Source of the DNA: Gemmatimonadaceae bacterium
GTDB lineage: Bacteria > Gemmatimonadota > Gemmatimonadetes > Gemmatimonadales > Gemmatimonadaceae
Length of the DNA stretch: 32,787 nucleotides
Assembly: GCA_020853635.1 (NCBI GenBank)
Contig: JADYYN010000053.1
Coordinates: 1-32,787, forward strand
Reading direction: 5' to 3'
Of the stretch, positions 20,335 to 32,243 are shown piece by piece (position 1 is the first letter of the stretch; each line of letters starts with the position of its first letter). The translations under genes were made by a program, and so were the position numbers. The notes beneath the pieces were generated by a model, which worked only from the letters and a program-made list of their open reading frames with translations, searched no databases and had not been told where the DNA came from.

Positions 20335-23300
20335 CTACTCCGTCACCCAGGATTCGTCTGCGGCGACGCGATCCTCCTCCGCCTCTTCGACCGCGCGCTT
20401 CTCCTCCCACCGCGTGAGTGAGCGATACAGCAGCGGCAACACGAACAACGTCAAGAACGTTGACGTCACCAGTCCGCCGATCACCACGCTCGCCAGCGGG
20501 CGCTGCACCTCCGAGCCGGCACTATGCGAGAGCGCCATCGGCACGAAGCCGAGGCTCGCGACGAGCGCGGTCATCAGCACCGGTCGCAAGCGGTCCATCG
20601 CGCCTTCGCGCACCGCGCGTTCGAGGTCACGTCCGCGCGCACGCAGATGGTTGAGATGCTCCACCAGCACCACGCCGTTGAGCACCGCGATGCCGAACAG
20701 CGCGATGAACCCGATGCTCGCCGAGAGGTTGAGGTTGAGCCCGCGCAGCCACAGCGCCGCCACACCACCCACGAGCGCAAACGGCACGTTGAGCAACACG
20801 AGTCCCGCCTGTGACACAGAGTCGAACGAGAGGAACAACAGGAAATAGATGAGCAACAGCGCTGCCGGCACCACGAAGGTGAACCGTCCGAGCGCACGCT
20901 GCTGGTTCTCGTACTGCCCGCCCCACTCGAGGAAGACTCCCTTGGGAACGGTCACCTGCGCCGCAACTTTCGCGCGGACTTCCTTGACGAAGCTGCCGAG
21001 GTCGCGCCCGCGCACGTTCGCCATCACCAGCGTGCGGCGTTGCGCGTCTTCGTGCGCGATGAGCTCGGGACCCATCACCGGGGTGAGTTCGGCGAGTGAT
21101 GCGAGCGGCACGAGGCCACCGTTGGCGGCGCGCACGGTAAGACGCTTGAGCGCCTCGAGATCACTGCGAGACTCCTCGCGCAATCGCACGGCGACGCCGA
21201 TGCGGCGCGCGCCATCGACCAACTCCGTCGCGACGGCGACGCCGGTGCCGAGGTCGAGTGCGTTCTGCACGTCGGCGACGGTCACGCCGTAGCGCGCGAG
21301 CGCGTCACGATCGATGTCCACGCGATACTGCCCGCTGCCATCGGCGATTTCCACCGAGACGTCCTCGGCGCCCTGCACCCCGTCGACGATCTGACGGATG
21401 CGCTCGCCGAGGGCTTCGTTCTGTACGCGGTCAGGTCCGACGACTTTGATGCCCAAGTCCGTGCGGATGCCGCTCTCCGCTTCGTCGAGTCGCATGGCCA
21501 GCGGTTGCGTGAAGGCGATCTCCAGGCCCGGGATCTGCGCGAGCGCGGAATCGAGCGCCGCCACGAGTCCATCACGATCGCTCGCGGTGACCCACTCGTC
21601 CTGCGGCTTGAGGATGACGTACGTGTCGCCTTCGTAGAGCCCCATCGCCTCGGTCGCGAGGTCTGGGCGGCCTTCCTTGGTGACCACGGTGATCACCTCG
21701 GGGAAGCCCTTGATGATCTTCTCGGCGGCCGTCGACAGTCGCGTCGCTTCGGCGAGCGAGATGCTCGGCAGGCGGCGCGTGGTGATGAGGATGTTGCCTT
21801 CATCGAGCTTGGGCATGAACTCCGTGCCGATCCAGCCGAACGATGCGAGCGAGACGACCACCAGCACGATCGACGTGCCGACGACGAGTTTGCCGTTCAC
21901 GAACACCCACTCGAGGCCGCGACCATACGCGGCCTTGAGGCGGTCGAACCACGGGTTCGGCTTCTCTTTCGCGTGCCGCAGCAGCATGTGCGAGACTGTC
22001 GGCACGTATGTCAACGCGAGCAGCAGCGAGCCGAGCACCGCCGTGACGACGGTGAACGCCATCGGCTTGAACATGCGGCCTTCCATGCCATCCAGCGTGA
22101 AGATGGGGATGTACACGGAGACGATGATGGCGATGCCGAACAGGATGGGCCGACCGACTTCCACGGCGGCGGACAAGAACACCGAGTCGCGGTCGCCGTG
22201 CGCACCGTCCTCGAGTCGGCGCACGAAGTTCTCGACCATCACCACGGAGGCGTCGACAATGAGTCCGAAGTCGAGGGCACCGAGACTCATGAGATTCGCC
22301 GAGTAGCCGAAGAGCTTCATGCCGGCGAAGGCGAAGAGCATGGAGAGCGGGATCACCGACGCGACGATGAGCGACGCGCGGATGTTGCGCAGGAAGAGGA
22401 ACAAGACCGCGATGACGAGCAAGCCACCTTCAACGAGATTCTTGATGATCGTGGAGGTCGTTCGCGCGACCAGCTGCGTTTGATCGTAGAACGGGGTGAT
22501 GTGCACGTGGGCGGGGATGGCCGCGCGGACTTCGTCGAGCCGTGCAACGACGCCGTCGATCACCGCACGGGAGTCGGCGCCCTTGAGCTTGAGCACCATG
22601 CCGGTGACGACTTCGCCCTTGCCGTCCTGCGTCACCGCGCCCTGCCGCGGCAAGGCACCCATCTGGACCGTCGCTACATCGCGCACGAGCACGGGCACAC
22701 CAACGCGTGTCGCGACGACCATGCGTTCGATCTCGGCCAGCGACTCGGCGCGGCCCATGCCGCGGATCGTGAAGCGCTCCCCGGCGGTCTCGACGTACGC
22801 ACCGCCGAACGTGCGGTTGTTGGCGTCGAGTGCGTCGTGCACCTCGGCGAGCGTGAGGCCGCGCGCCGCGAGGCGCGCTGGATCGGCGACGACGTGGATC
22901 TGCTCGATGAACCCACCCCACGAGTTCACCTCGGAGACGCCAGGGACCGTGCGCAGTCGTGGACGGATGGTGTAGTCGTGCAGCGTCTTGAGCTCGGCGA
23001 GCGACAGGGAGTCGCTCGTCACCGTGTACTGGTACAACTCGCCCATCGGCGTGGTGACGGGTCCGAGCCCGGGCTCGATCCCGGCGGGCATCGCGCCCTT
23101 GGCGTCGGCGATGCGCTGCTGCACGAGCGTGCGCGCGAAGTAGACGTCGACCTTGTCAGGGAACGACACCGTGATGATCGAGAGCCCCTGCTTGGAGACC
23201 GAGCGCACACCTTCCGCGCCTTCGATACCCATGAGCGACGACTCGATCTGATACGTCACCAGGCGCTCGACATCCTCGGGCGGCATGCCCGGCGCCTGCG

Positions 23301-23448
23301 TGATGACTTCCACGCGCGTGCCCGTGAGATCAGGGAACGCATCGAACGGCAGGTGCGTGACGGAGAAGAGTCCGGCGGCGATGAGCGTGAGCACACCGCC
23401 GATGACGAAGAAGCGCTGCTTGAGCGCGAAGCTGATCAGCTTGTTCAT
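20335..23448 (-). CDS. czcA: Heavy-metal efflux RND pump (CzcA type)
   Basis: This 1037-residue inner-membrane protein is an RND transporter of the heavy-metal efflux family, driving proton-coupled export of metal ions across the periplasm with its adaptor and outer-membrane partners. It shows two repeats, each with one N-terminal helix, a large periplasmic loop and six helices. The TM4 signature DFGLIVDASVVMVEN carries Asp393, Asp399 and Glu406, at the same spacing as Asp402/Asp408/Glu415 of CzcA rather than the CusA pattern. This points to divalent cations (Zn, Co, Cd or Ni). The ATG overlaps the adaptor stop as ATGA. Length is normal. A hairpin follows the stop. Confidence 0.94.
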   Translation of the reverse strand: MNKLISFALKQRFFVIGGVLTLIAAGLFSVTHLPFDAFPDLTGTRVEVITQAPGMPPEDVERLVTYQIESSLMGIEGAEGVRSVSKQGLSIITVSFPDKVDVYFARTLVQQRIADAKGAMPAGIEPGLGPVTTPMGELYQYTVTSDSLSLAELKTLHDYTIRPRLRTVPGVSEVNSWGGFIEQIHVVADPARLAARGLTLAEVHDALDANNRTFGGAYVETAGERFTIRGMGRAESLAEIERMVVATRVGVPVLVRDVATVQMGALPRQGAVTQDGKGEVVTGMVLKLKGADSRAVIDGVVARLDEVRAAIPAHVHITPFYDQTQLVARTTSTIIKNLVEGGLLVIAVLFLFLRNIRASLIVASVIPLSMLFAFAGMKLFGYSANLMSLGALDFGLIVDASVVMVENFVRRLEDGAHGDRDSVFLSAAVEVGRPILFGIAIIVSVYIPIFTLDGMEGRMFKPMAFTVVTAVLGSLLLALTYVPTVSHMLLRHAKEKPNPWFDRLKAAYGRGLEWVFVNGKLVVGTSIVLVVVSLASFGWIGTEFMPKLDEGNILITTRRLPSISLAEATRLSTAAEKIIKGFPEVITVVTKEGRPDLATEAMGLYEGDTYVILKPQDEWVTASDRDGLVAALDSALAQIPGLEIAFTQPLAMRLDEAESGIRTDLGIKVVGPDRVQNEALGERIRQIVDGVQGAEDVSVEIADGSGQYRVDIDRDALARYGVTVADVQNALDLGTGVAVATELVDGARRIGVAVRLREESRSDLEALKRLTVRAANGGLVPLASLAELTPVMGPELIAHEDAQRRTLVMANVRGRDLGSFVKEVRAKVAAQVTVPKGVFLEWGGQYENQQRALGRFTFVVPAALLLIYFLLFLSFDSVSQAGLVLLNVPFALVGGVAALWLRGLNLNLSASIGFIALFGIAVLNGVVLVEHLNHLRARGRDLERAVREGAMDRLRPVLMTALVASLGFVPMALSHSAGSEVQRPLASVVIGGLVTSTFLTLFVLPLLYRSLTRWEEKRAVEEAEEDRVAADESWVTE

Positions 23449-24650
23449 TCGCCGCCTTCCCCGCCGGCGCGACGCTTGGCGATCTCCGCCTTGCCGATCG
23501 CCGCGCCGCGATCGAGCACCGAGTCGCCCTTCGCGACACCGCCGAGGATCTCGGCGAGCAACGACGTGCGCCGACCGATGCGGACCGGGCGCGCTTCGAT
23601 GAGCAGGCCTTCACCCACGTGCGACGCGACGACGACGATGGTGTCACCGTCGTTCATCTGCACCGCGCTCGCGGGCACGGCGAGCACCTTCGCGCCGCGC
23701 GCACCGATCAACTCGGCATCGGCGGTCATCTCGGCGCGGAGCAGGCGCTGGCCATCGCCCGTGATGCGCGCCCAGACCTCGACCGCGCGGCTCATGGAGT
23801 CGACCACCGGCGCGATGCGGGTGACGCGCGCCTCGAACACACGATCGCGGTACGCCGGGACCTTGAAGCGCACCTGCACATCAGGCGCGATGCTCGCGAT
23901 GGCTTCTTCCGGCAGATTCATCTGCACGCCGAGTGCGGACTCGCGTGCGACGGTGATCAGCGGCTGGCCGATGAGCACGACCTGGCCGGGTTGCACCTGA
24001 CGGCCGGTGACGACGCCGGCGAACGGGGCGCGCAGGATCGCCGCGTGTTCGTCGAGTCCTTCTTCGCTGCCGTGACCGATCAGATGCTCGAGGAATCCCT
24101 CGGCGCGGAGCGCCTCGGCGTCGGCGGCTTCGCGCGCGGCGACGGCGGCCACGGCGTTCGAACGCGCCCGTTCGACATCACCGGTCGACATCGCTTTCGC
24201 AGCGAGCAGACGTTTAGCGCGTGCGGCGGCGTTGGTCGCGACCGTCGCGGCGGAGTCAGCCGCGCGCGCCGCACCGCGCGAGGCGATGAGGCGCTGCCGC
24301 GCGTCCATCACCTCGTGCGAGTGGATGAGCGCGAGCGGTTGACCCTGCACCACACGATCACCGGGGAAGACACGCACCTCGAGCACGCGACCTTCGACCA
24401 CACTGCCCAGCGGCTGCGTGGATGCAGGGTCGAGCGTGAGTCGCGCGGGTGCGTGCCAGGCGTCGCGCCACTCCGATTCCGTGACGCCCACCAGCGAGAA
24501 CTGTCCGATCTCCACGGCCTGCGCGCTGAGCAGTGCGGTGTCGGCGACGGTGGCGACGGACTCCGGTGCCGCCTCCTCGGTGCCGCCGCAGGAGGCGGAG
24601 AGCAGCACGAGCGACGTGAGCGCGAGAAACGACGAGGTACGAACGATCAC
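23445..24650 (-). CDS. czcB: RND efflux periplasmic adaptor (CzcB type)
   Basis: This 401-residue membrane-fusion protein links the RND pump to the outer-membrane channel. The N-terminus is a lipoprotein signal with lipobox LSAS-Cys at about residue 21. A lipoyl/barrel-sandwich hybrid domain follows (VVEGRVLEVRVFPGDRVVQG and ILRAPFAGVVTGRQVQPGQ), split by an Ala-rich coiled-coil hairpin (~115-200). Beta-barrel and membrane-proximal domains complete it (VRFKVPAYRDRVFEARVTRI). There is no obvious His-rich metal-binding extension, unlike some CzcB proteins. The GTG start overlaps the stop of the channel gene (GTGA), and czcA follows with ATGA. Confidence 0.91.
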   Translation of the reverse strand: MIVRTSSFLALTSLVLLSASCGGTEEAAPESVATVADTALLSAQAVEIGQFSLVGVTESEWRDAWHAPARLTLDPASTQPLGSVVEGRVLEVRVFPGDRVVQGQPLALIHSHEVMDARQRLIASRGAARAADSAATVATNAAARAKRLLAAKAMSTGDVERARSNAVAAVAAREAADAEALRAEGFLEHLIGHGSEEGLDEHAAILRAPFAGVVTGRQVQPGQVVLIGQPLITVARESALGVQMNLPEEAIASIAPDVQVRFKVPAYRDRVFEARVTRIAPVVDSMSRAVEVWARITGDGQRLLRAEMTADAELIGARGAKVLAVPASAVQMNDGDTIVVVASHVGEGLLIEARPVRIGRRTSLLAEILGGVAKGDSVLDRGAAIGKAEIAKRRAGGEGGE

Positions 24651-25882
24651 TTGGCCTCCAGCGCGCTCGCGCCGATGGCGCGTCGCAGGGCGAGTCGGGT
24701 GAGAGCGCGGTCCATCTGACCGCGGACGCCAGCGGCGCGCGCATCAGCGCGCGCCCGGTGTGCTTCGAGGAGTTCGGTGAGTGTGGCGGCACCTTCGCGG
24801 TAGGCGGCGTCGGCCGCCGAGGCGACGAGATCGGCGCGCGCCGCGAAGCCTTTGTCGAAGGCGGCTGTGCCGTCCTCAAGCGCACGTGCCGAGGCCAGCG
24901 CCGCACGGGCTTCAGCGACGACGCGCAGCTCGGCCGCGCGCAGTTCGGCATTGGCAATGAGTTCCTCTCCGGCCGTGCGTTCGCGATTGCCACCGTTGAG
25001 GTTGAGCAGCGGCGGCGTGAGGATGACGCCGAAGGTCGCGGTGGAGTACCCGGCGGTGCCCTTGTATCCACCGGAGAGCCCGACATCGGGCAGCGCGCCG
25101 CGCGATTCCGCCGCATGACGTCGCTCAGCCTCGCGTGCCGCGGCTCGGGCCACGGCGAGCAGTGGATGATCGCGCCGCGCGGTCGCGATCACCGTCGGTT
25201 CGTCCGGCAGCACATCCGCGAGCACGACCGCCTCGCCGAGCACCAGCGAGGCGGGATCGTCCCGACCGACGAGGGCGGCGAGCAGGGCGCGCGCGTTGAT
25301 GGCTGCCGCTCGCGCCTGTGCGGCGGTGAACCGCGCGCGGTCGGCCTCGAGCTGCATGCGCATGGCCGTCGCCTCGGCGACCTCGCCCTCTGCCGCGCGC
25401 AGCGAGTCGTAGCGCGCCAACTCGGTGAAGCGGTCAGCCTGGGCCGCCGCGAACTGCGCGAGCTGGTCTGCCGCCCAACTCTCCCACCACGCGACGGCCG
25501 TCGCGTACTCGGTCCCGAGGGTCGTCGCGATGGAGTCGGCGACGGCTCGCGTGCGCGCGGCGCCGAGCGCACTGCGCAGCGCGAATCGCCGCCCGGTGAT
25601 GTCGATCGGCAGGGTGAGCGTCGCGAAGTCGTCGTAGGGGATCGGTGCCCCTTCGTTCTCGCGGCGGAGTTCGAGGGTGGGATTGGCCCACTGCGCGTCG
25701 GTGCGCGCACGGCCGACGATGCTGGCGCGGCGGCCGGCGGCGAGCGCGGCGGCTGGACCGACGGTCGTCGCGCGACGCACGGCGTCAGCGAGGGTGAGTG
25801 GCACATCGGCCCCCTGCGCGCCCGCGACGAGCGGGAGCAGGAGGCCGAGTGCGACGGCGGAGAATGGGACGCGTGGGATCAT
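24647..25882 (-). CDS. czcC: TolC-family outer-membrane channel (CzcC type)
   Basis: This 411-residue exported protein has a signal peptide (residues 1-22, VALGLLLPLVAGAQG) and the two long Ala/Arg/Glu-rich helical repeats of outer-membrane efflux proteins. The motif NPTLELRRENEGAP after the first helix and the second-repeat block ARAAAREAERRHAAESRGALPDVGLSGGYKG, read as two segments, are characteristic of the CzcC/TolC family. It forms the outer-membrane exit of the metal pump. It is the first gene of the operon. Its ATG lies six bases after TAGCTT and 22 bases after a direct-repeat box also found at the response-regulator promoter; no Shine-Dalgarno sequence is present. Confidence 0.9.
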   Translation of the reverse strand: MIPRVPFSAVALGLLLPLVAGAQGADVPLTLADAVRRATTVGPAAALAAGRRASIVGRARTDAQWANPTLELRRENEGAPIPYDDFATLTLPIDITGRRFALRSALGAARTRAVADSIATTLGTEYATAVAWWESWAADQLAQFAAAQADRFTELARYDSLRAAEGEVAEATAMRMQLEADRARFTAAQARAAAINARALLAALVGRDDPASLVLGEAVVLADVLPDEPTVIATARRDHPLLAVARAAAREAERRHAAESRGALPDVGLSGGYKGTAGYSTATFGVILTPPLLNLNGGNRERTAGEELIANAELRAAELRVVAEARAALASARALEDGTAAFDKGFAARADLVASAADAAYREGAATLTELLEAHRARADARAAGVRGQMDRALTRLALRRAIGASALEAK

Positions 25883-25888
25883 GGTCCC

Positions 25889-25921
25889 AAGCTAGGTCCG
25901 CCGCATGAACCCACGATGAAT
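25889..25921 (-). promoter_or_regulatory. czcCBA promoter with response-regulator-type direct repeat
   Basis: On the minus strand the box ATTCAT-CGTGG-GTTCAT (25921-25905) is followed after exactly 10 bp by TAGCTT (25894-25889), which ends six bases before the czcC ATG. Two hexamers with 11-bp period replacing the -35 element is the layout of promoters activated by PhoB/OmpR-type regulators. The same box and spacing occur at 31113-31145. Confidence 0.7.
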
Positions 25922-29022: not shown

Positions 29023-30399
29023 TCAGCTCGTCGGGAAATCCACTACGACGCGGGTTCCGGGCGACGACTCGCCGAACTCGATCCGCGCTCCGTGCCGACG
29101 CGCGATCGACGCGGCGATCGCCAAGCCGAGCCCGCTGCCGCCGGGCACCAATCGCCGTGCCTCCGCCCCGCGGAAGAACCGCTCGAACAGTCGCGCACGC
29201 TCCTCGGGAGCGATCCCGATGCCTTCGTCGGTCACTTCGAGCTGCGCCGGGCTCCGGCGCGCGCGCACCGTCACCGTGCCACCGGGATGCGAGTAGCGGA
29301 TGGCGTTGTCGACGAGGATGCCGACCAGCCGGGCGAGCGTGATCGCCTCGCCGCGGATGGGCACCTCGTCGGGCACGTCGACCACGAGGCGGATGCCGCG
29401 CGTGCGCGCCAACGCTTCGAACGCCGACGTCGCGTCGGCAACGATGTCATCGAGGAAGAGCGGTTCGAGTTTCGCCGGTGCCGCACTCGCATCGGCGCGC
29501 GCGAGTTCGAGTAGCTCGTCGGCGAGGCGCGACATCGTCTCCAACTCCGCGCGGGTCTGCTCGAGCGCGGCACGGTCGTCCGCCGACCCCGCTGGGGCCG
29601 CCAACGCGAGTTCCCCGATCCCGCGTGCACGCGCGATCGGCGTGCGCAGTTCGTGCGCGGCGTCGGCGAGGAATCGGCGCTGATGGCCGAGCGCCGCGTC
29701 GAGTCGGTCGAGCAGCGCGTTGAAGCGTGTGCCGAGTCGGCCGAGTTCATCGTCGGGCACGGCGATGGGGAGTCGGCCTTGGGCGTCGGCGGTGATGCGA
29801 TCGGCGGCGTCGGCCATCGCACTCACGGGTTGCAGCGTGCGGCCGGTGAGCACCCAGCCGGCGAGCAGCGCGAGCCCGAACGCGAGCGGCACGGCGAGCA
29901 GCGCCCAGCGGTCGATCTGCCGTTGCTGGCGTACGAGCGGTTCGGCGGACGCGGCGAGGCGGATCTGCCAACCCGGTGCGAGCTCCGGATTGAGCGGCAC
30001 GAGGCGTTCACGCAGCGGCGGCGCGAGCGGTAGCTGTGGCACGAGACGCGCGAACGCGTTGGGCTCGTGCACCGCCCCTTCGGGTGTGACGAACTCGATG
30101 CGACGATCGGGGATGACCAACTCTCCCGCGATGTGATCGAGCGTCGGGCCGATCTGACGGTACTCGGCGATCTCCACTCGGAAGAAACCCTGCACGATCG
30201 CGGTGGACGACGCGATGGACCGCGCGAACTCGCGTTCAAGCGAGGTTCGCACAAGTGTGCGCGCGACGAGTGTGGCGGCGAGCAGCAGCACGAGGATCGT
30301 GCCGGCGTACCAGAGCGTGAGCCGCAGCCGGATGCTGCGCGCGGGGCGCGCCGCGCTCGTCGGCGCCGTCGAAGGTGTCGACGGGACGGTGGCACTCAT
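29023..30399 (-). CDS. HAMP-type sensor histidine kinase
   Basis: This 458-residue inner-membrane sensor has two transmembrane helices (about 27-48 and 165-185) around a ~115-residue periplasmic sensing region. A HAMP linker follows (~186-240). The phosphorylation helix FLADAAHELRTPIARARG carries His249. The ATPase domain has the N box VDNAIRYSHPGG and the G boxes DEGIGIAPEE and GSGLGLAIAASIARRHGA. It should phosphorylate the response regulator whose stop overlaps its ATG. The periplasmic region has few Cys or His, so metal binding is not obvious, but the shared promoter box with czcCBA suggests a metal or envelope signal. Confidence 0.93.
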   Translation of the reverse strand: MSATVPSTPSTAPTSAARPARSIRLRLTLWYAGTILVLLLAATLVARTLVRTSLEREFARSIASSTAIVQGFFRVEIAEYRQIGPTLDHIAGELVIPDRRIEFVTPEGAVHEPNAFARLVPQLPLAPPLRERLVPLNPELAPGWQIRLAASAEPLVRQQRQIDRWALLAVPLAFGLALLAGWVLTGRTLQPVSAMADAADRITADAQGRLPIAVPDDELGRLGTRFNALLDRLDAALGHQRRFLADAAHELRTPIARARGIGELALAAPAGSADDRAALEQTRAELETMSRLADELLELARADASAAPAKLEPLFLDDIVADATSAFEALARTRGIRLVVDVPDEVPIRGEAITLARLVGILVDNAIRYSHPGGTVTVRARRSPAQLEVTDEGIGIAPEERARLFERFFRGAEARRLVPGGSGLGLAIAASIARRHGARIEFGESSPGTRVVVDFPTS

Positions 30400-31103
30400 C
30401 GCCGCTTGCCCGCACTGGGGCCCGACGCCGGCTCACTGACTCCTAGTCGGTAGCCGGCACCGCGCACCGTCTCGACGAGGGGAAGCTCACCTGGGAAGTC
30501 GATCTTTCGGCGCAACCGCCCGATGTAGACATCGATGACGTTCGAGAAGGGATCGTAGTTCTGGTCCCACGCGTGTTCACTGATGCGCTCGCGTGTGATG
30601 ACCTCACCGGGGTGGCGCATGAGCACTTCGAGGACGGCGAACTCCTTGGTGGTGAGCGCGATGCTGCGCTCCCCGCGGCGCGCGCTGCGGGTCCCGGTGT
30701 CGAGTGCGAGGTCTTGGACCTGCAGCACCGCCGGGAGGACATCGGCCGGACGCCGGAGCAGCGCGCGCAGCCGCGCGACCAGTTCTCCCAGCGCGTACGG
30801 CTTGACGATATAATCGTCTGCACCGGTGTCGAGTCCGGCGATGCGGTCCTCGACCGCGTCGCGCGCGGTCGCCATGAGAATGCGCAATGGGGTGCCGCGG
30901 GCGCGGAGTCGGCGACAGACTTCTAAGCCATCGACGTCGGGCAATCCGAGGTCGAGTACGGCGGCATCGTAGGGCGTAACAGCGGATTCGCGCAATGCGG
31001 TGGCGCCGTCCGGAGCGACGTCGACGGCGTAGCCGGCGTTGCGCAGGAACTGGGCGGCGGTCGCCGCCATACGAGGATCGTCCTCCACCAGGAGCAGGCG
31101 CAT
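30396..31103 (-). CDS. OmpR-family response regulator
   Basis: This 235-residue protein has an N-terminal receiver domain with the acidic pocket (VEDDP), phospho-acceptor Asp51 (AAVLDLGLPDVDG) and the conserved Lys in DYIVKPYALGEL. The C-terminal OmpR/PhoB winged helix (~125-225) contains LTTKEFAVLEVLMRHPGEVI and NVIDVYIGRLRRKID, the recognition helix region. Such regulators bind tandem hexamers with 11-bp period. That box is present upstream of its own gene and of czcCBA, so it probably regulates both. The ATG at 31103 lies nine bases after TAGATT and lacks a Shine-Dalgarno sequence. It is nearest in type to CzcR/CusR-like metal regulators, but this is inferred from context. Confidence 0.93.
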   Translation of the reverse strand: MRLLLVEDDPRMAATAAQFLRNAGYAVDVAPDGATALRESAVTPYDAAVLDLGLPDVDGLEVCRRLRARGTPLRILMATARDAVEDRIAGLDTGADDYIVKPYALGELVARLRALLRRPADVLPAVLQVQDLALDTGTRSARRGERSIALTTKEFAVLEVLMRHPGEVITRERISEHAWDQNYDPFSNVIDVYIGRLRRKIDFPGELPLVETVRGAGYRLGVSEPASGPSAGKRR

Positions 31104-31112
31104 TCGATGGGG

Positions 31113-31145
31113 AATCTAGCGCGGCACGATGAACGGACGATGAAC
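31113..31145 (-). promoter_or_regulatory. Two-component operon promoter with response-regulator-type direct repeat
   Basis: On the minus strand the box GTTCAT-CGTCC-GTTCAT (31145-31129) is followed after exactly 10 bp by TAGATT (31118-31113), which ends nine bases before the response-regulator ATG. On the plus strand the box is two perfect tandem 11-bp units (31126-31136 and 31137-31147). The preferred ATG of the divergent patatin gene (31140) lies inside the box. Confidence 0.7.
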
Positions 31146-32243
31146 GGCGACCTGGTGCTGCCGCCGAAGGTCGCGCTCGTCCTGGGCGGCGGCGGCCTCA
31201 AGGGCTTCGCGCACATCGGCGTGTTGCGCGCCTTCGAGGAGCGCGGCATCCGGCCGACCGTCGTCGCGGGTACGAGCATCGGCTCGTTGATCGCCGCCGC
31301 CTACGTCGGCGGCATGCCGGTGGACGAGATGGAGCGACGCGCGCTGGCGCTCAACAAAGGCGATCTGTTCCGGATCGACCATATCTCGATGGTCACGAAA
31401 CGGATGTTGTCGCCGTCGCTCTATCTCTCGCGACCGCTCGAGAAGCTCGTGCGCGAGATCGTCCCGAAGGGATCGTTCCGAGAGCTCCCGCGGCCGCTGC
31501 TGGTGAACACGGTCGATCTCGAATCCGCGTCGCAGGTGTTGTGGGGCCTGCCCGGGTTGCAGGACGTCTCGATCGCCGACGCGGTGTACGCCTCGTGCGC
31601 GCTGCCGGGCTTCTTCCCCCCGGCGATCGTCGGCGGGCGCACCTGTGCCGACGGCGGCATCTCCGACAACGTGCCGGCCCTCGCCGCCTCGCACGGCATG
31701 GATGCGGTGATCGCGGTGGACGTGGGCAGCACCAACATCGCGCGCGCGCGCCGGATCAAGGAGAAGGGCTTCGCAACTATATACATGCGCGCCGCCCAGA
31801 TCATGATGAAGTCGCTGCAGTCGCTGCAGCTGGAGCGCTGGCAGGGACCACCGCTGTTGCTCGTGCGTCCCGCGGTGTGGCAGTACGGCTGGTTCTCGTT
31901 CGCGCACGTGCGGCGCATGATCGAACTGGGCTACGAGGCGGCGAACGACGCACTCGATCGCGCCGGCGCCTCCCTCATGCTCGGCGGGGTGTGGCCGCGG
32001 CGCATGGTCGACGTGCGGGTGGACCATGCCGCCTGCACCGGCTGCGGGCTCTGCGTGTCGCTCGCGCCGCGGACCATGACGATGAACCGCGACGGGAAGG
32101 CCGAGGTGTTGGTGAGCCCGGTGGAGTGGTCGCGGGCCGATGGAGACTTCGTGCACCAGTGCCCGACGAATGCGATCCACGTGGATGCGCTTGAGGGACC
32201 GCACCGGTGGCCGACACTAGAAATGCCCATCCTCGAAGAGTGA
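31140..32243 (+). CDS. Patatin-like phospholipase with C-terminal [4Fe-4S] ferredoxin domain
   Basis: The N-terminal patatin domain (residues ~8-210) has the oxyanion loop GGGGLKGFAHIG, the nucleophile elbow GTSIGS with Ser46 and the catalytic Asp171 in DGGISDN. It should be a Ser-Asp acyl hydrolase acting on lipid esters. There is no signal peptide. Residues ~290-350 form a single-cluster ferredoxin domain: Cys299, Cys302 and Cys305 (CTGCGLC) with Cys341 before Pro (CPTNAI), enough to bind one [4Fe-4S] cluster. Both domains are in one uninterrupted frame. The ATG at 31107 would add 11 residues and leave three bases to the divergent regulator gene; 31140 is preferred because it directly precedes the domain. 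The TGA lies 15 bases before aconitase. Confidence 0.9.
   Translation: MNGDLVLPPKVALVLGGGGLKGFAHIGVLRAFEERGIRPTVVAGTSIGSLIAAAYVGGMPVDEMERRALALNKGDLFRIDHISMVTKRMLSPSLYLSRPLEKLVREIVPKGSFRELPRPLLVNTVDLESASQVLWGLPGLQDVSIADAVYASCALPGFFPPAIVGGRTCADGGISDNVPALAASHGMDAVIAVDVGSTNIARARRIKEKGFATIYMRAAQIMMKSLQSLQLERWQGPPLLLVRPAVWQYGWFSFAHVRRMIELGYEAANDALDRAGASLMLGGVWPRRMVDVRVDHAACTGCGLCVSLAPRTMTMNRDGKAEVLVSPVEWSRADGDFVHQCPTNAIHVDALEGPHRWPTLEMPILEE

Follow-up and report, generated by a model that had tools for sequence, protein, structure and literature searches.

In a 32,787-nucleotide stretch of DNA from a Gemmatimonadaceae bacterium (contig JADYYN010000053.1; the whole stretch is called the window here), the operon of a czcCBA metal-efflux pump lies on the same strand as an operon for a response regulator (RR) and a sensor histidine kinase (HK), which raises the question of whether the two-component pair controls the pump and through which site. 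The preliminary description of this DNA had claimed that the two operons share a regulator box of identical architecture. The minus strand reads ATTCATCGTGGGTTCAT-N10-TAGCTT-N6-ATG at the czcC promoter and GTTCATCGTCCGTTCAT-N10-TAGATT-N9-ATG at the RR promoter. Common to both is the pattern RTTCAT-N5-GTTCAT-N10-TAG[AC]TT, which the start codon follows after 6 or 9 nt; direct reading showed the claim to be right to the base in coordinates and letters (Table 1).

Table 1. Genes and promoter elements of the locus, with positions in the window
Feature	Position	Strand	Remarks
czcA, heavy-metal RND transporter	20335..23448	-	NCBIfam TIGR00914 (CusA/CzcA), 1098 bits, cut-off 701
czcB, RND periplasmic adaptor	23445..24650	-	Pfam HlyD_D23; NCBIfam TIGR01730 above cut-off
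czcC, outer-membrane factor (OEP)	24647..25882	-	Pfam OEP, 7.8e-23
czcC -10 hexamer, TAGCTT	25894-25889	-	exactly 10 bp past the box; 6 nt to the czcC ATG at 25882
czcC regulator box	25905..25921	-	ATTCAT (25921-25916), N5, GTTCAT (25910-25905); two 11-bp direct-repeat units; direct reading
BNR/sortilin-like gene, 992 aa	25977-28955	-	between HK and czcC
HK, sensor histidine kinase	29023..30399	-	HAMP, HisKA, HATPase_c; in an operon with RR, whose 3' end it overlaps
RR, OmpR/PhoB-family response regulator	30396..31103	-	Pfam Response_reg and Trans_reg_C above cut-off; proposed binder of both boxes
RR gene -10 hexamer, TAGATT	31118-31113	-	10 bp past the box; 9 nt to the RR ATG at 31103
RR gene regulator box	31129..31145	-	GTTCAT (31145-31140), N5, GTTCAT (31134-31129); direct reading
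Patatin-like phospholipase, C-terminal 4Fe-4S domain	31107-32243	+	divergent from RR

Genes of the Locus

The nearest solved relative of CzcA is ZneA (4k0e). In a phmmer alignment, CzcA has T, E, and E at the places of the methionine triad of CusA (which we take to be M573, M623, and M672), the triad expected of a CusA-type Cu/Ag pump, and these residues point away from Cu/Ag. In the HK, four residues of the periplasmic stretch are conserved in all or all but one of the 41 kinases compared (E76 in 41, E79 in 40, H89 in 40, and E93 in 41), a pattern that would be compatible with a divalent metal. From these features we infer that the signal and the substrate are a divalent metal of the Zn, Co, Cd, or Ni kind.

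The RR combines a receiver domain with the C-terminal winged helix (Trans_reg_C) that defines the OmpR/PhoB family. Its best NCBIfam match is RppA, also given as NrsR (NF041734; 226 bits, under the family cut-off of 250), and it scores 217.1 bits against the heavy-metal regulator family of CzcR, CusR, and CopR (TIGR01387; cut-off 279.2). Because it falls below both cut-offs, we did not file it as a CzcR/CusR member. NrsR controls a nickel efflux operon in Synechocystis.

The BNR/sortilin-like gene was found in the window and in one relative (G087). Among the 45 RR loci described below it is unmatched in the remaining 43, several of which break off at the edge of a contig. In the window, the czcC box sits between the stop codon of this gene and czcC.

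Conservation of the czcC Promoter

We collected 45 Gemmatimonadota loci encoding an RR of at least 63% identity, from 43 of 395 genomes of the phylum and two genomes of a family sample (G074 and G027). Upstream regions were scored out of 15, with spacers of 9–11 bp tried at a half-point penalty for any length other than 10. The czcC gene could be counted in 39 of the 45 loci; in five the contig ends first, and one (L069, in G064) has an RR and no czcC within the 16 kb fetched. Conservation in relatives had been proposed as a check on the earlier claim, and all 39 czcC promoters carry the box, with at least 10 of its 12 positions matched, scores of at least 13, and exactly 10 bp between the box and a -10 that reads TANNNT in 37 and CANNNT in 2. 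None of 177 control upstream regions from the same loci (HK, 44; czcB, 37; czcA, 37; patatin, 29; aconitase, 30) reached a score of 12, and 20 shuffles per region gave a maximum of 12.5.

Column information over the 39 promoters is 1.3–2.6 bits in the core box and the -10 and at most 0.31 in the upstream flank, values that lean toward the score by which the sites were themselves chosen; one further column, a G just past the -10, stands out with 0.71 bits. Where a -35 might lie, no enrichment of TTGACA-like sequence was seen (mean best match of 2.41 out of 6 in the 39 promoters versus 2.75 in shuffles). The idea that the hexamers replace the -35 needs care in its wording, since any such element would itself fall across the centre of the box.

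The start codon follows the -10 by 5–8 nt in 38 of the 39 promoters. Given the usual distance from a -10 to the start of transcription, the czcC mRNA should be leaderless or nearly so. When other genes were searched with a leaderless-promoter profile, a 6-nt gap was slightly over-represented, with 10 hits among 881 start candidates and 3 among 1057 internal controls. Counts of 10 and 8 were also seen at gaps of 36 and 39 nt, so the profile proves little.

The czcC promoters thus have the layout of PhoB-type class II activation, with a tandem 11-bp direct repeat at a fixed distance from the -10 and no -35. The OmpR/PhoB fold of the RR fits such activation too. We consider it highly probable that both boxes are operators of the adjacent RR, which would act as a class II activator of czcCBA and, in this genome, of its own RR-HK operon. 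The HK would phosphorylate the RR, and the phosphorylated RR would bind the two 11-bp units as a head-to-tail pair and recruit RNA polymerase to the -10 lying 10 bp downstream, standing in for the -35. The efflux operon would thereby be switched on, and the RR-HK operon with it in this genome, from transcripts predicted to begin at or beside the start codon. Binding by the RR, its dependence on phosphorylation, activation as opposed to repression, and the leaderless start are predictions drawn from the sequence.

The RR Promoter and Autoregulation

The RR promoters of the same 45 loci are less uniform. The box is clear (score of at least 13) in 17, borderline in 8 (12–12.5, within reach of shuffles), and missing or unrecognizable in 20. 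In the 25 promoters with a box, the spacer is 10 bp in nine, 9 bp in eight, 11 bp in three, and 8 bp in five, to which the script had assigned a 10-bp spacer and a poorer -10. In three of the promoters with a 10-bp spacer, the box stands about 95 nt upstream, with a leader of 60–64 nt. Several boxless promoters still have TAGATT beside the start codon (e.g. L058, L066, and L073). Spacing that varies from 8 to 11 bp should be more than a strict class II activator tolerates. With the box this variable across loci, autoregulation does not belong to the system as a constant feature.

A modified form of this reading would keep the action of the RR on czcCBA through the box and deny that the copy at the RR promoter is a functional autoregulatory site, given its overlap with the start of the divergent patatin coding region. 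Read in reverse complement, the distal GTTCAT indeed supplies an in-frame ATG of patatin (position 31140), and the 20 boxless RR promoters, several of them with TAGATT in place, would fit such a view. Against it, the full geometry is present in the window, in its closest relative (G087), and in two further genomes (G228 and G073), one of which (G073) has no patatin match in the 4.2 kb upstream. We regard this variant as unlikely, and autoregulation as plausible in this genome. The preliminary inference that the RR controls its own operon is less well supported than that on the pump. Patatin and aconitase genes were found in 29 and 30 of the 45 loci, respectively, counting the window; as an explanation of the box, a coding artefact of the divergent patatin was rejected, the box being present where no patatin was found nearby.

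Distribution of the Box in the Genome and the Phylum

Within the window, four matches to the box with up to two mismatches were found; shuffled sequence gave 1.38 on average, and four such matches were reached in 4 of 100 shuffles. The remark that no other paired copy could be seen by eye stands, as neither the window nor the draft genome contains a further exact RTTCATN5GTTCAT. At 84% completeness, this draft (4.17 Mb in 295 contigs) may lack further sites. Besides the two exact sites, it has eight with one mismatch, versus a single site with up to one mismatch for the reversed control, and none of these eight has TANNNT at 10 bp downstream. With up to two mismatches allowed over the box and the -10, 9 sites were found versus 3 for the reversed control. 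A wide regulon in this genome was therefore rejected, since only the two exact sites stand out.

Across the 395 genomes, the pattern RTTCAYN5RTTCATN10TANNNT occurs at 47 sites in 40 genomes and its reversed control at none, by which a chance repeat could be dismissed. Of these sites, 33 lie at the czc operon (at one, in G215, czcB and czcA are matched and the first gene is unmatched), 6 at the RR, and 5 at an operon for a CopD-like membrane protein and a Rieske protein; 3 are without assignment (G073:C295, G228:C22, and G106:C10). Unrelated genomic hits had been named as grounds for doubt; there is no other exact site in the own genome, and 39 of the 47 phylum sites are at the czc operon or the RR.

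This distribution bears on an alternative in which a PhoB/PhoP-type phosphate regulator encoded elsewhere reads the motif as a Pho box and the pump belongs to the phosphate regulon. The motif nearly matches GTTCACN5GTTCaC, the site of PhoP/PolR in actinobacteria, as it appears in the excerpts of two papers (PMC6754071; PMC4415409), the PolR site being given as GTTCACnnnnnGTTCaC (PMC6754071). The likeness to Streptomyces PhoP and Microlunatus PolR extends, as far as these excerpts go, to a GTTCA[C/T] direct repeat of 11-bp period bound by a two-component RR. However, their sites belong to phosphate and polyphosphate genes, whereas the regulon here would be local to a heavy-metal RND pump and has a fixed 10-bp spacing to the -10 at czcC and near-leaderless starts. 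If a phosphate regulator read it, the box would be expected in front of phosphate genes. The genome of the window, at 84% completeness, nevertheless has just the two exact boxes even when no -10 is required, and 44 of the 47 phylum sites are at the RR/czc cluster or the CopD-like/Rieske operon. The box also tracks the adjacent RR and is lost together with it, as described below. We consider the phosphate explanation very improbable.

A wider scan covered 80 of 591 loci, mostly with RR relatives from other phyla that are at most 54% identical. It gave 9 boxes in these 80 loci versus 1 for the reversed control, and one of them is the czcC box of a Gemmatimonadetes locus (L129). Two of the other eight (L142 and L172) are found no more than 100 bp upstream of the RR, neither with a -10 at 9–11 bp; the L142 box is on the opposite strand with no open frame after it, and the L172 box is AT-rich. 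The remainder are at least 0.8 kb from the RR, one with a -10 (L201). We therefore did not extend the code beyond Gemmatimonadota.

Co-occurrence and Loss of Box and Regulator

The strict box was found in 35 of the 43 genomes with the RR and in 5 of the 352 others (Fisher 5e-37, uncorrected for relatedness, which inflates these counts). Seven of the eight RR genomes without a strict site have the box by relaxed scoring (G003, G011, G018, G029, G086, G089, and G347), and the eighth (G043) is cut by a contig end. The five genomes with a box and no RR match are G344, G121, G215, G059, and G106. The first three of these encode a 55–56% identical RR divergent from the czc operon, with the box between them. 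G059 is a counter-example, with czcC and its box and no RR match at E 1e-80 (the genome is a draft, 89% complete).

We also looked at loci that keep the pump. The czcA search gave pumps of at least 68% identity in genomes without the RR, and 19 loci entered the comparison, among them four without czcC on the contig (G375, G329, G228, and G073) and three without a czcC match (G388, G389, and G323). Three genomes of one genus (G318, G399, and G049; 1.8–2.2 Mb) retain czcCBA, with 61% identity for czcC and 81–83% for czcA. At the loci fetched from them (L236, L237, and L238), RR, HK, and patatin are unmatched, and an aconitase gene is the divergent neighbor of czcC; no RR passes E 1e-80 anywhere in the three genomes, the HK having been looked for at the locus alone. 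Their czcC promoters contain no box, the best scores being 9–9.5 out of 15. Both RR and box are likewise absent from G036. In G342 the box scores 14 out of 15, and the RR is cut by the contig end and was hence missed in the RR search. Seven further genomes (G039, G278, G172, G052, G025, G126, and G094) have a czcA of just 51–57% identity, and none of them has the box (best scores of 9–11 out of 15). The conservation in all 39 czcC promoters, the co-occurrence across the phylum, and the joint loss in these three genomes of one genus support the earlier inference that the RR controls the metal pump.

All three genomes retain a TANNNT, separated from the czcC ATG by 6 or 7 nt, and in two of them (G399 and G049) it reads TAGATT, with a TTGGG hexamer 17 bp upstream that matches TTGACA at 3 of 6 positions and may be chance. 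That a boxless promoter can persist in these two genomes would suit a different explanation, in which the box serves repression and the RR, or some other factor, would occlude the promoter until metal relieves it; repression would also tolerate the variable spacing at the RR promoters. However, czcC promoters without a -35 should be weak unless activated, the invariant 10-bp spacing at czcC fits activation, and 3 of 6 positions is a poor match to TTGACA. We think repression very unlikely and retain activation by the RR as the preferred reading.

Comparison with Known Operators

The shared box is real, and as an operator it would be a well-defined new example of PhoB-type activator sites. In E. 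coli PhoB promoters, 10 bp separate the pho box from the -10. The pho box itself consists of two 11-nt tandem units, with CTGTCAT as the most conserved motif in the excerpted account (PMC4415409), and a strict spacing from box to core promoter is described for PhoB-activated promoters in the excerpt of another (PMC10294691). The Gemmatimonadota sites resemble these in their tandem 11-nt units and, at czcC, in strict core-promoter spacing, and differ, as far as the excerpts go, in reading GTTCAT, not CTGTCAT, and in serving a different regulon.

Like CzcR, CopR, and CusR of Pseudomonas and AgrR of Cupriavidus, the RR would be a two-component metal regulator of a metal-resistance or efflux operon, and several of those regulators control themselves. 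Their sites, in the portions of the papers available, are inverted repeats (ATTCATnnATGTAAT, PMC11195947; ATKACANNNNTGTMAT, PMC7380067). In contrast, the 39 aligned czcC promoters have a tandem direct repeat as their core and not an inverted repeat. Searches for operators of nickel regulators and of UzcR yielded nothing of use for this comparison. Operator symmetry is here separated from function, in that a presumed metal-pump regulator uses a phosphate-type tandem box.

A search of the open-licence literature found no described operator of a two-component metal regulon for Gemmatimonadota, a little-studied phylum; what it did return concerns, judging by title and abstract, antimicrobial resistance, heavy metals and microplastics. 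The box provides a precise, genome-predictable candidate for one, and the code is short enough for members of the regulon to be predicted from sequence. The joint loss of box and regulator and the altered spacing at RR promoters are natural experiments that make the spacing rules of class II activation testable. Several points go beyond the preliminary description, namely that the site found at this metal pump is tandem and not palindromic, that the operator is lost with its regulator, and that there is a second candidate target, to which we now turn.

A Second Candidate Target

In five of five loci (L085, L230, L231, L232, and L069), the box precedes genes for a CopD-like/DUF2214 membrane protein and an exported Rieske protein; the Pfam matches are below cut-off for CopD and DUF2214 and above it for Rieske. 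All four genomes of genus g23 (G098, G297, G317, and G376) have a 204-aa first gene in this operon, which lies away from the RR, and in G064 (L069) the operon is divergent from the RR. From the position of the box, the CopD-like/Rieske operon appears to be a second candidate target, in two genera.

Taken together, these data allow a wider proposal, which we put forward tentatively and with somewhat more doubt than conviction. A Pho-type tandem box, not a metal-regulator palindrome, would define a small dedicated efflux regulon at leaderless promoters in Gemmatimonadota; the CopD-like/DUF2214 and Rieske target would tie metal efflux to the redox chemistry of the envelope; and where the two-component pair is lost, the operator would decay and leave czcCBA under a regulator-free promoter.

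One of the sites without assignment (L229, G228:C22:4861-4893) has a perfect box and -10, after which come a frame containing two ferredoxin-like CxxCxxC clusters and then what looks by eye like the start of a flavoprotein.
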